A stretch of 48,288 nt of DNA, taken from the IMG/VR virus record IMGVR_UViG_3300025413_000040, positions 1 to 48,288 of that record; one strand, written 5' to 3'. Position 1 is the stretch's first letter. Every line of letters starts with the position of its first letter. Positions 31,321-47,728 of the stretch are shown here, one piece after another. A program made the translations under genes and the position numbers. The notes beneath the pieces were generated by a model, which made no database searches, was not told the DNA's origin, and was given only the letters and a program-made list of their open reading frames with translations. This DNA is from a virus.

Positions 31321-32277
31321 GACCTGATAATAAGGGTATTTATCCTTGAAATAGCTTTTCTTAAAAACCACACACCTACAAATAGAAAAGAGGAAGTAAA
31401 ACTTGTTTTCGTTCAAACTAGCCGAAGACTTTGTTAACACGTATCGCTCCAAGAAAGTCGACTGGGGTTACCAAGATGCGGCGGGAAACTCCGTAGGTGA
31501 GATCACCTTTATCAGAACCTATTCTCGTCTTAAAGAGGATGGAACCAAGGAGACTTGGGCAGATACTTGTGAGCGTGTGATCAACGGTATGTACTCAATC
31601 CAAAAAGACCATGCCAAGGCTAACCGCCTTCCTTGGTCAGATACTAAGGCGGCTGCCTCAGCCAAAGAGGCATTTGACCGAATGTTCAACTTTAAGTGGA
31701 CCCCACCTGGACGTGGTCTATGGATGATGGGTACGCCGCTAGTTAATGTACAGAAGAACTCTGCAGCGTTGCAGAACTGCTCGTTTGTATCTACCGCAGA
31801 GATGAATAAAAATAACCCGGCCAAACCATTTGCATTCCTAATGGAAGCCTCTATGCTCGGAGTGGGCGTAGGCTTTGATACCAAGGGTGCAGAAAAGGAC
31901 TTCGTAATTTATGACCCACATCCAGATACCGACCCAATCGTCATCCCAGACACCAGACCAGACACCAGAGAAGGTTGGGTCGAAAGTACCACATCGCTCA
32001 TCAATAGCTACCTTAAGCCAGATCAGAAGAGCCCAGTCTTTGATTACAGCCAGATCCGCCCAGCTGGAACGCCAATTAAAACGTTCGGAGGAACTGCTGC
32101 AGGAGCAGACCCTCTTATCAAACTTCACGAGCACGTTCGCCGCATCTTTAAAGGACGAGCAGGAGAAAAAGTAACTACCACTGACATTGCAGACCTCGGT
32201 AACTTAATCGGTGTCTGCGTAGTCTCAGGTAACGTACGTCGCTCTGCTGAGTTGCTCATGGGTAAGATCGATGATCA

Positions 32278-32553
32278 GGAATTCCTCAACCTGAAGAACT
32301 ATGAAGTGTTTCCAGAGCGTAACGCTTACGACCCGACAGGTAAAAACTCTGGTTGGGGCTTCATGTCCAATAACTCAGTTGAGGCTCATGTAGGCCAAGA
32401 CCTTTCTCCTATCATGGAATTCCTCAACCTGAAGAACTATGAAGTGTTTCCAGAGCGTAACGCTTACGACCCGACAGGTGAAAACTCTGGTTGGGGTTTC
32501 ATGTCCAATAACTCAGTTGAGGCTCATGTAGGCCAAGACCTTTCTCCTATCAT
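32278..32553 (+). repeat. 138-base tandem duplication inside the RNR gene
   Basis: Unit one starts with GGAATTCCTC at 32278 and unit two with the same sequence at 32416. The two 138-base units differ at only two silent-type positions (GGTAAA/GGTGAA, which changes Lys to Glu, and GGCTTC/GGTTTC, which is synonymous). The reading frame is kept. Confidence 0.95.
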
Positions 32554-32765
32554 TGATGGTATCGCTCGTAATGGCGAGCCAGGAGTGATCTGGATGGACG
32601 TAACTCGTAAGTACGGTCGCCTTGCTGATCCTGAAAATAATAAAGACTGGCGTGCTGCTGGATACAATCCATGCGCAGAGCAATCCTTGGAATCTATGGA
32701 ATGCTGTACTCTTGTAGAGACATACATCGGACGACACGAGACCTTGGAAGATTTCAAGCGCACTC

Positions 32766-32775
32766 TTAAGTTAAG
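32766..32775 (+). repeat. 5-base duplication causing the RNR frameshift
   Basis: TTAAG is repeated directly (TTAAGTTAAG). Removing one copy joins the two RNR frames at a conserved segment. Confidence 0.9.
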
Positions 32776-33589
32776 TTTGCATATCTCTATGCTAAGACTG
32801 TAACCCTTCTCCCAACTCACTGGGAAGAGACCAATGCCATCATGCAGCGTAACCGTCGCATTGGCACATCTATCTCGGGCGTAGCTAACTTTGCAGATAC
32901 ACGCGGGTTGCCTACATTGCGTACATGGATGGATGAAGGATATGTAACCGTACAGGCCTATGATAAGAGTTACTCAGAATGGCTCGGTATTCGTGAGTCA
33001 ATCAAGACCACAACTATCAAGCCATCCGGCACAGTCTCAATCCTAGCCGGTGAATCTCCAGGGGTTCACTGGACTCCAGGTGGAAAGCATTTCCTCCGCA
33101 CTATGCGCTTTAGTAAGGCTGATCCTATGGTCACCCTATTTAAGATGGCTAACTATCGTGTTGAAGACGCTGAGAGCGATCCATCAGGTACTGCGGTTGT
33201 TTACTTCCCTATTAAAAGTGATGCTGAACGCTCAGAGCAGGACGTCTCTATCTATGAGAAGATGGCTTTGGCAGCTACAGCACAGCGTTATTGGTCTGAT
33301 AACTCAGTATCGGTAACAATTAGCTTTGATCCAAAGACAGAAGCAAAGGCTATTGGAACTGCCTTGCACATGTACGATGGTCAGCTTAAGACTGTTTCAT
33401 TCCTACCTATGGACAATGGTTCATACGCTCAGATGCCCTACACTAATAGTAATGCGGATGAGTATGAAGAGGGTAGAATGACTCTGTTCCCGATTGACTT
33501 CAAGGGAATCTATGAAGGTATGGGTCTGGATGCCGTAGGAGAGGCATACTGCACAACAGACGCATGTGAAGTAAAACTTGTAAGAGACA

Positions 33590-34303
33590 ATGCTTAATAA
33601 GCTCGAAGGTTTTGCGCCTGTCTACATTATCAACCTCTCAAAGAGGGTAGACAGGCGTAATGCCATTTTAAAAGAGTTTTTGGAGTACGGGATATCTGAC
33701 TATACGTTTATAGAGGGCATAGACCCAAACAAAGAGAACGTATTTGAGATGGTTACGGTCAAAGAGAACGTATTTGAGATGGTTACGGTAACCCGGCTAA
33801 GTAAGCCCTCTGAGATAGCCTGTACTTTATCCCACATCAAGGCAATAAAGTATTGGTTGGAAAATAGCGACACAGATCAGGCAATAATTGTAGAAGATGA
33901 TCTATCTTTCGATACTGTGCCCTATTGGGACTTTACCTGGCAGGAGTTCCTGGACTCCTTAGATTTTGAGTACGATGCCTTACAACTATCTATATTCAAT
34001 ATTCCAGAGAATCTTAATTTTAAGCTTCATAAAAGACATTGGGGAGATGCCTCAGCCGCCATCTACGTAATCAAGCGGGACTATGCTGAGAGGCTTCTAA
34101 GAGAAATGACAGAGATACTCATCTCCGAAGGCTTTCTGTTCGGCACCGGCAATGTCTACTCTGCAGCTATGTTCACCCATAATAAAGAGTCAATTCAAGA
34201 ATCTAATATAACCCCAGAGAATGTGCCGGGGCAGATAGTGTTTAGAGAAACAGTACTTGACTATTGGAAAAACCGTTATACTTCTATAACCCAGACCGAC
34301 TAG
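33590..34303 (+). CDS. GT25-family-like glycosyltransferase
   Basis: The 237-residue protein begins with VYIINLSKRVDRRNAILKEF and continues ACTLSHIKAIKYW and AIIVEDDLSFD, matching glycosyltransferase family 25 (LPS-type galactosyl/glucosyl transferases; EDD is the metal/sugar-nucleotide site). It may glycosylate host surface polymers or virion proteins. A 30-base tandem duplication inserts KENVFEMVTV twice near residue 48. The start overlaps the RNR stop by 8 bases. Confidence 0.78.
   Translation: MLNKLEGFAPVYIINLSKRVDRRNAILKEFLEYGISDYTFIEGIDPNKENVFEMVTVKENVFEMVTVTRLSKPSEIACTLSHIKAIKYWLENSDTDQAIIVEDDLSFDTVPYWDFTWQEFLDSLDFEYDALQLSIFNIPENLNFKLHKRHWGDASAAIYVIKRDYAERLLREMTEILISEGFLFGTGNVYSAAMFTHNKESIQESNITPENVPGQIVFRETVLDYWKNRYTSITQTD
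33731..33790 (+). repeat. 30-base tandem duplication in the glycosyltransferase gene
   Basis: Two copies of a 30-base unit starting AAAGAGAACGTATTTGAG lie head to tail at 33731-33760 and 33761-33790, differing at the last base only. The frame is kept, adding ten residues. Confidence 0.95.
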
Positions 34304-43632: not shown

Positions 43633-43984
43633 TTTTGTACCCCCTCTGTTGTTGGTACTTCCTCCTTTCAGAGGAAATCTAATACAGCAAGGCGCTTTTT
43701 GCAAGCGCCTTGGCTGCCCATTAATGAAGCATTGCTTAAAGGCGATTGGATGACAATATGATCCACGACTAAATCGTGGGAATCGTAGGGGGTCATGAAA
43801 CGGGTCAGATACATCTATTAGCTTTGTCCGTCCAGACGTAGCGTTCGAAGCTTTAGCAGAGTCAATATTCCACACACCTCAATCCGTCCCGCAATGCTTT
43901 CTCTTGGTTGTCTATACAACCAGCATCCACCCCACACAGGGTGGAATGGATACAAGCGGTATAGGGGCGCGATGTTTGTGTTGG
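43633..43984 (-). ncRNA. Structured 352-base spacer, candidate leader or small RNA
   Basis: No gene is credible here. In minus sense it holds a series of hairpins: CCACCC/GGGGTGG, GGTTGT/ACAACC, CCACGA/TCGTGG, AAGGCGCTT/AAGCGCCTT, TTCCTC/GGAGGAA and GTACC/GGTAC. The fifth contains GGAGGAA, a ribosome-site sequence, in one arm. TTGCAA, a 17-base spacer and TAGATT overlap the AAGGCGCTT hairpin and may be a promoter. The start of the region carries copy 6 of the dispersed motif. Confidence 0.45.
43974..43984 (-). repeat. Dispersed motif, copy 6
   Basis: CCAACACAAAC on the minus strand lies immediately after the stop codon of the gene ending at 43985. Confidence 0.8.
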
Positions 43985-46907: not shown

Positions 46908-46945
46908 CAAAAAGTCGGGGAAACCTACTATACTAAGAATGGCTA
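46908..46945. repeat. GGCGGGGAAAC-family repeat, copy g
   Basis: GCAAAAAGTCGGGGAAACC is followed by CTACTATACTAAGAATGG. It resembles copy c at its left end and overlaps the Hsp20 -10 box. Confidence 0.65.
46929..46934 (+). promoter_or_regulatory. -10 box of Hsp20
   Basis: TATACT lies in CTATACTAAGAATGGC. The same extended sequence (CTATACTAAAAATGCC) precedes the structured RNA at 47525. No good -35 box is seen. Confidence 0.55.
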
Positions 46946-46992
46946 GGCCAAATGGCTAGCTCTAACTAATTTATCGTCTAAGGAGATAAATC

Positions 46993-47505
46993 ATGGCATC
47001 ACCATATACAGGCGGGTATCCTAAAGATCCTCACAAGGAACGTTATCCAAATCCTTGGGGTAGAACAGGTACAACAAGCCAACCAATTCCAGAGGTAACA
47101 ATTACTAGCCTCTTTCCTCAGTTCAATCGCTGGGCTATCGGATTTGATCCCCTGCTCGATACATTCAAGCAGGTTAGTCAATCAGCTAAATTTGGCGGGT
47201 ATCCTCCATATAACATCTACAAAGATGGGGATAGATATGTCCTAGAACTGGCTGTAGCCGGTTTTAGCAAGGAAGATATCACCATTAGCGTAAAAGAGCT
47301 CCAGTTGACCGTAGAAGGCTGTTTAGAGGCATCTAAGCCGGAGCCTATCCATAAGGGTATTGCTACCCGTGACTTCAAGCAAGACTTCGTATTAGCGGAG
47401 TATGTAGTAGTCAAGGGGGCAGAGCTCAAGGATGGATTACTACGGATTACTCTAGAGCAAGAGCTACCCGAAGAGTTACAGCCAAAGATTATTAAAATCA
47501 AGTAG
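46993..47505 (+). CDS. Hsp20/IbpA-type small heat-shock protein
   Basis: AAGGAGATAAATC precedes the start. The 170-residue protein has a Pro-rich N-terminus, FDPLLDTFKQ, then the alpha-crystallin domain: YPPYNIYKDGDRYVLELAVAGFSKEDITISV, a VEG turn, RDFKQDFVLAEYVVVKGAELKDGLLRITLEQELPE and the I-x-I-like KIIKIK end. This is the IbpA-like class seen in several large phages. It would hold unfolded proteins, probably virion or host proteins, during assembly. Confidence 0.92.
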   Translation: MASPYTGGYPKDPHKERYPNPWGRTGTTSQPIPEVTITSLFPQFNRWAIGFDPLLDTFKQVSQSAKFGGYPPYNIYKDGDRYVLELAVAGFSKEDITISVKELQLTVEGCLEASKPEPIHKGIATRDFKQDFVLAEYVVVKGAELKDGLLRITLEQELPEELQPKIIKIK

Positions 47506-47524
47506 TCTTTGCTATACTAAAAAT

Positions 47525-47612
47525 GCCCCAGTAGATACCGCAACATAGGTGGCCCTCCTTTCAATAGGGCCTTAAAGATGCTACGGCCTATATGCACTGG
47601 ACCTACTGGGGC
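47525..47612 (+). ncRNA. Structured small RNA with anti-Shine-Dalgarno-like loop
   Basis: GCCCCAGTAG (47525-47534) pairs perfectly with CTACTGGGGC (47603-47612). Inside are an arm ATAGG/CCTAT extended by GCA/TGC and a hairpin GGCCCT/AGGGCC with loop CCTTTCAAT. A TATACT -10 box ends 7 bases upstream, so transcription should start at the first stem base. The sequence CCUCCUUUC (47554-47562) is the same as the anti-Shine-Dalgarno tail of actinobacterial 16S rRNA. Confidence 0.6.
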
Positions 47613-47635
47613 CATCTAATTTTAGGAAATACAGT

Positions 47636-47728
47636 ATGAAGAAGAATAAAGAAGAGAATGAGACAATAGTCTTAGATAAAGAGACTATGGATGATATCTG
47701 GGCTACCCAGCAATCATTTGAAGAGTAG
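47636..47728 (+). CDS. Acidic microprotein, 30 residues
   Basis: TTAGGAAAT precedes ATG 47636. The product is a short charged helix (KNKEENETIVLDKETMDDIW). It sits directly after the structured RNA. Short length makes it uncertain. Confidence 0.55.
   Translation: MKKNKEENETIVLDKETMDDIWATQQSFEE

Follow-up and report, generated by a model that had tools for sequence, protein, structure and literature searches.

A conserved, structured RNA element between a promoter-like site and tRNA or microprotein genes downstream of phage hsp20

An 88-nt segment located just after the hsp20 gene of an uncultured freshwater phage is, on comparative sequence evidence, a genuine and evolutionarily preserved RNA structure, of a kind that is absent from RNA databases (no Rfam match). 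The window analysed here, meaning the whole stretch of DNA, is an IMG/VR virus record of 48,288 bp. Another 10 virus records contain the element, in each case immediately behind a phage hsp20 gene; it has a promoter-like site on one side and a tRNA gene or ribosome site on the other. We give roughly even chances to the reading that it serves a tRNA or microprotein transcript as a structured leader module. The closest relatives of the window's DNA polymerase are polymerases of Streptomyces phages (~40% identity), a similarity with which a likely actinobacterial host would fit. The features of the region are the following:

46993 to 47505, + strand: hsp20 gene (170 aa), constant upstream neighbour of the element (35 related phage loci)
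47510 to 47518, + strand: extended -10 promoter-like site TGCTATACT, predicted +1 near 47525
47525 to 47612, + strand: structured RNA element, 88 nt (folding, alignment and model search), one per record and hsp20-linked
47525 to 47534, + strand: closing stem P1, 5' strand (covariation in alignment A3)
47535 to 47541, + strand: conserved core, 5' strand AUACCGC (consensus RUACCGC; family alignment)
47542 to 47593, + strand: hypervariable apical domain (interior unalignable across the family)
47554 to 47562, + strand: CCUCCUUUC, claimed anti-Shine-Dalgarno mimic (CCU paired, CCUUUC in loop; not conserved)
47594 to 47602, + strand: conserved core, 3' strand GCACUGGAC (consensus GCAYUGGRC; family alignment)
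47603 to 47612, + strand: closing stem P1, 3' strand (covariation in alignment A3)
47636 to 47728, + strand: 30-codon ORF with AGGAAA upstream at 47624-47629, likely co-transcribed

A first-pass annotation of this DNA had proposed an 88-base segment closed by a perfect 10-base stem, lying between Hsp20 and microprotein genes and preceded by a promoter-like TATACT, and all of this was borne out. The closing stem P1 (GCCCCAGTAG/CTACTGGGGC) is a perfect 10-bp helix, and the element at 47525-47612 folds with a minimum free energy of -35.9 kcal/mol (z = -2.97), an equally good fold being obtained in 1 of 200 shuffles. The hsp20 gene, whose product matches Pfam HSP20 (E 2.7e-13) and PHROG 432 (2.2e-30), ends at 47505; the 30-codon ORF starts at 47636, had no family match in Pfam and PHROG profile searches, and has its predicted Shine-Dalgarno (SD) sequence and start codon unpaired in the folding. 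TATACT is found at 47513-47518 as part of the extended -10, with the element beginning 6 nt later, and a consensus scan returned no -35/-10 pair. The annotation was equally right that the segment does not look like a tRNA or a simple terminator: ARAGORN detected no tRNA in the window, and the window region contains no intrinsic terminator (GC stem with an immediate U run). A tRNA or tmRNA identity was dropped after permissive scans of the window and relatives gave no match. Against Rfam 15, the window had no match at the gathering threshold, a weak SAM_alpha match lying outside the element, and in the relatives this threshold was reached by tRNA genes alone; a resemblance of parts of the core to twister-sister and T-box RNAs was considered and abandoned, having no Rfam support.

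To delimit the family, IMG/VR was searched with the Hsp20 protein, giving 35 and later 80 loci, and the DNA past the hsp20 stop codon was read. The element-bearing relatives are L002, L028, L005, L008, L010, L017, L023 (identical in L025), L007, L112 and L124. A covariance model (R1) built from ten rows recovers all ten, a match by construction, while L007, which is outside the model, was found independently just after hsp20 (E 0.0007 in 340 kb, R1 E-values being rough). Run on 22 whole records, R1 found a single copy in 10 of them, each at the hsp20 site, and its eleventh match was a remnant in L019. When the model was applied to 37 loci from hsp20 phages that are more distant, the element was not found, and distant blastn of the element region against 50,697 phage records gave no match. 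Scanning viral contigs for the pattern of core and P1 residues returned true members at hsp20 only; the matches in L039-L043, L045, L046 and L048 were discarded as chance-like, the stem context being missing. The tRNA-anchored scans yielded the known members plus L342 (a contig match), which is not recognised by the family model and was set aside, and a weak match in L121 was treated as chance, with pairs broken in stem and core and a distance of 1.5 kb from hsp20.

Evidence for the structure comes from alignment A3, which comprises P1 and the core, hand-cut around the core, and in which N stands for the variable interior in the counts (row L007 has one additional base in the core region). In A3, 94.8% of the stem cells are paired. 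Covariation among relatives, on which the first-pass annotation had made its proposal depend, turned out to be strong: there are 34 double-changed cells, against 10.4 +/- 2.5 in shuffled controls, which do not correct for relatedness, and against 3-7 with the register slid, a control that does. The wobble counts, 13 G-U versus 2 A-C pairs, indicate therefore that the selected molecule is the + strand RNA, and it is in this form that P1 is shown, by sequence comparison, to be under selection. The 11 rows contain two close pairs (L002/L028 and L005/L023), so that the independent lineages number fewer than 11.

Conservation is distributed very unevenly along the element, with an alignment that shows a nearly invariant core and an apical domain free to vary. 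The CCGC, GCA and UGG of the core are invariant in 11/11 rows and the UA in 10/11, and the core, as it can be read, combines a bulged A and two C-G pairs with a bulge of three bases (AYU) and two further G-C pairs. The apical domain differs both in sequence and in length, whole elements ranging from 62 to 121 nt.

On the upstream side, P1 starts 6-11 nt past the -10 in 7 of the 11 rows, and in L002, L028, L007 and L124 a separate hairpin occupies the start position, with the element following at 30-53 nt, that is, as the second of two hairpins in tandem. An extended -10 no more than 50 nt from the hsp20 stop is present in 28 distinct relatives, and in 18 of these 28 loci a stem of 9 bp or more begins 4-14 nt after it, versus 1.7 expected from shuffles. 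On the downstream side, a tRNA begins 4-7 nt after P1 in eight rows (L002, where the tRNA sequence was seen directly, L007, L008, L017, L023, L028, L112 and L124). There is no adjacent tRNA in the window, L005 or L010; the window presents a ribosome site and the 30-codon ORF where most relatives have the tRNA. Several relatives have a U-rich tract behind the stem; it is absent in L008, L010 and L112. Since there is no room for a promoter between them, element and tRNA probably form one transcript. Because of this tRNA proximity in most relatives, and because the window lacks a terminator, co-transcription is likelier than a free-standing RNA; the structured RNA with a promoter-like site of its own thus stands as first proposed, its free-standing character being doubtful.

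The site after hsp20 also exchanges modules. Other hsp20 phages have different stems, of at least 9 bp, in the same place. In L019 and L009 the hairpin has the core UACGGCGAAUACGU, and remnants of the element's 3' side lie behind it; a 5' structure thus persists although the module changes type. Two further motifs were noticed. The hairpins of the form GUUU[C/A]UACGGCGAAUACGU[G/U]GC constitute a second family, with at least 120 rows in viral contigs and at least 45 distinct copies with a P1 of at least 4 bp in several gene contexts; in the common forms, C always goes with G and A with U. Among the matches listed, this family includes L003, L004, L009, L012, L019, L021, L035 and many of L132-L250, and the ten loci scanned gave no Rfam match at gathering. 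A third motif after hsp20 (e.g., GCUCCUGGGUAUGAGCACGCAAAAACUGCCCA) reads as an H-type pseudoknot, with arms that change yet stay complementary (UGGG/CCCA, UGAG/CUCA, UGGAC/GUCCA); it occurs in L029, L032, L080, L085, L087, L262, L263, L266, L268, L286 and L324 and had no Rfam match in the loci scanned.

Other observations concern the hsp20 gene itself and a distant part of the window. The hsp20 leader (46929-46961) contains the hairpin GGCUAGGCCAAAUGGCUAGCU 6 nt after a TATACT, and in about 20 loci the leader has a hairpin soon after the -10, with a variable stem, a bulged G, CC/GG or CUC/GAG pairs and an AAAY or GAAY loop. The hsp20 ribosome site, in the window (46969-46991) and in about 20 loci, lies in a loop, GUCUAAGGA, and the hairpin stems that close it vary by phage (AUUUAUC/GAUAAAU, UAUAUC/GAUAUA, AUUUC/GAAAU, GUUGUC/GACAAC); one possible role of such a hairpin is the control of Hsp20 translation, perhaps by acting as a thermosensor. 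At 31403-33597, a ribonucleotide-reductase-like sequence (named by eye) is divided between two ORFs, and about 43 of its residues are repeated in tandem (FLNLKNYEVFPERNAYDPTG...); the next ORF (33590-34303) has a short tandem repeat, VKENVFEMVTV x2. The repeats at 31403-34303 are either an assembly error or a true duplication.

In the leader reading, transcription would start from the extended -10 just after hsp20 and run on into the tRNA genes in most relatives, or into the microprotein gene in the window. Where a tRNA follows at 4-7 nt, the RNase P cut of the pre-tRNA would free the element, leaving a stable RNA that measures about 65-130 nt and ends in a short 3' tail. The stem, at or near the 5' end, would shield the transcript from 5'-dependent decay, and the invariant core is probably a docking site for a protein, RNA polymerase or another RNA. 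This reading is supported by the covariation, the G-U excess, the hsp20 linkage, the start of the stem soon after the -10 in 7 of 11 rows, the proximity of tRNAs, the persistence of a 5' structure through module exchange and the free SD of the next ORF; against it speaks the window, where no tRNA is adjacent. Protection of the 5' end is not the sole job of the element, because the latter lies away from the 5' end in 4 of the 11 rows. An invariant internal core is not known to be a requirement of ompA-type stabilising stem-loops, and the near-invariant core exceeds what a protective stem needs. A more specific proposal, which we put forward tentatively, is that of an undescribed phage RNA family in which the core would recruit a host or phage factor (RNA polymerase, a processing enzyme) to tRNA transcripts, with RNase P freeing a second functional small RNA.

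The main rival of the leader module is a put-like action: the element could be a cis-acting regulatory leader whose core binds a ligand or acts, as put does, on RNA polymerase, and which thereby governs pausing, termination or anti-termination in the tRNA or microprotein genes behind it. This is possible, at perhaps half the probability we grant the leader module. A near-invariant, asymmetric core within a covarying stem, a promoter-proximal location, the U-rich tract of several relatives and the tandem hairpins of L002, L007, L028 and L124 are all consistent with it, as is the architecture of put RNA, with putL just past the promoter (PMC9378689). However, no expression platform is seen in the window, where there is no terminator and the SD is free, the U tract is missing in L008, L010 and L112, and the element is present in a single copy per genome, while antiterminators are often reused.

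An independent small RNA acting in trans, with apical loops that pair with targets, is rather unlikely. It would account for the promoter-like site and the very stable closed fold, and it has a parallel in the two stable small RNAs of the T4 tRNA region (PMC3014915, PMC9697503), but the apical loops are the least conserved part, the window has no terminator and related phages carry unrelated hairpins instead. Very improbable is an inverted repeat working at the DNA level in recombination or cassette exchange, as proposed for the T4 PeSLs, and having no RNA function: the module replacement seen in L019 and L009 is clear, but G-U pairs are accompanied by hardly any A-C, the invariant core is asymmetric, and the orientation relative to promoter and hsp20 is constant.

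Least credible of all is the function originally suggested, that of a decoy or sequestering RNA with a hairpin presenting nine bases of the 16S anti-Shine-Dalgarno tail. The sequence match is exact (CCTCCTTTC, at 47554-47562) to what we take to be the 3' end of actinobacterial 16S rRNA. It has a frequency of 0.0009 in dinucleotide shuffles of the element, but the choice of target came after the sequence had been read, and conservation judges the matter better. Of the 11 family members, only the window's element has the 9-mer, and it lies there in the apical domain, where conservation is lowest; the ten others lack any 16S-tail 6-mer that contains CCUCC, and other 16S-tail 6-mers are limited to CUUUCU in L002 and L028. 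As for presentation, CCU (47554-47556) is paired (unpaired probability 0.005-0.107) and CCUUUC alone is in the loop, so that about half of the match is buried in a stem; the computed duplex with GAAAGGAGG reaches -13.3 kcal/mol, but opening CCUCC costs ~6.1 kcal/mol. The same 9-mer, moreover, occurs twice more in the window. Given its restriction to one phage and its limited accessibility, anti-SD mimicry was rejected and the match is incidental. One of the further copies is at 43661-43669 on the + strand, and a gene on the minus strand may use its complement, GAAAGGAGG, as ribosome site. A lesson of the case is that a short match may be striking, as this one to 16S rRNA is, and still fall where a genuine RNA is least conserved.

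What emerges is an RNA family that is defined, testable and strongly covarying, and that uncultured phages, likely of Actinobacteria, carry at the place where phage tRNAs are made. Among known systems, stem-loops in 5' untranslated regions are established to shield transcripts from RNases, and the element resembles the 5'-terminal stabilising stem-loops of the ompA type in having a stem near the transcript 5' end (PMC7509114). The put RNA of phage HK022, of about 70 nt and two stem-loops, with putL just downstream of a promoter, is likewise a structured RNA that follows a phage promoter, and acts without a dedicated protein (PMC9378689). It differs in being a pair of stem-loops and in binding, in E. 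coli, the polymerase's zinc-binding domain, and the likeness is one of description. The PeSL cassettes of T4-type phages, attributed to Comeau, Arbiol and Krisch (2014; cited in PMC5931544), reportedly consist of an intergenic promoter and a stem-loop, in modules that are shuffled among relatives. A promoter-like site and module exchange would be shared with the locus of the element, whereas the PeSL stem-loops are terminators and the stem of the element lies behind the promoter, with a conserved core and, in the window, no U tract; the pairing of a promoter with an effective terminator stem-loop was not found in the window, which has no terminator.

The T4 tRNA region yields two stable small RNAs whose function is unknown (PMC3014915, PMC9697503). 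These, RNAC and RNAD (species 1 and 2 stable RNAs), resemble the element as small structured phage RNAs within a few nucleotides of tRNA genes, but they lie 3' of the tRNA, measure 119 and 139 nt and, in the case of RNAC, have a T-arm-like CCGGGUUCGAAUCCCGG. Homology was not apparent when R1 was run on the T4 region with filters off (best score 8.7 bits, not credible). As analogues, RNAC and RNAD would nevertheless appear to be the closest, together with, by architecture, HK022 put and the T4 PeSL cassettes. An independent family with a conserved core therefore offers a second system in which to ask what the tRNA-linked stable RNAs of T4, which have no known role, might do.
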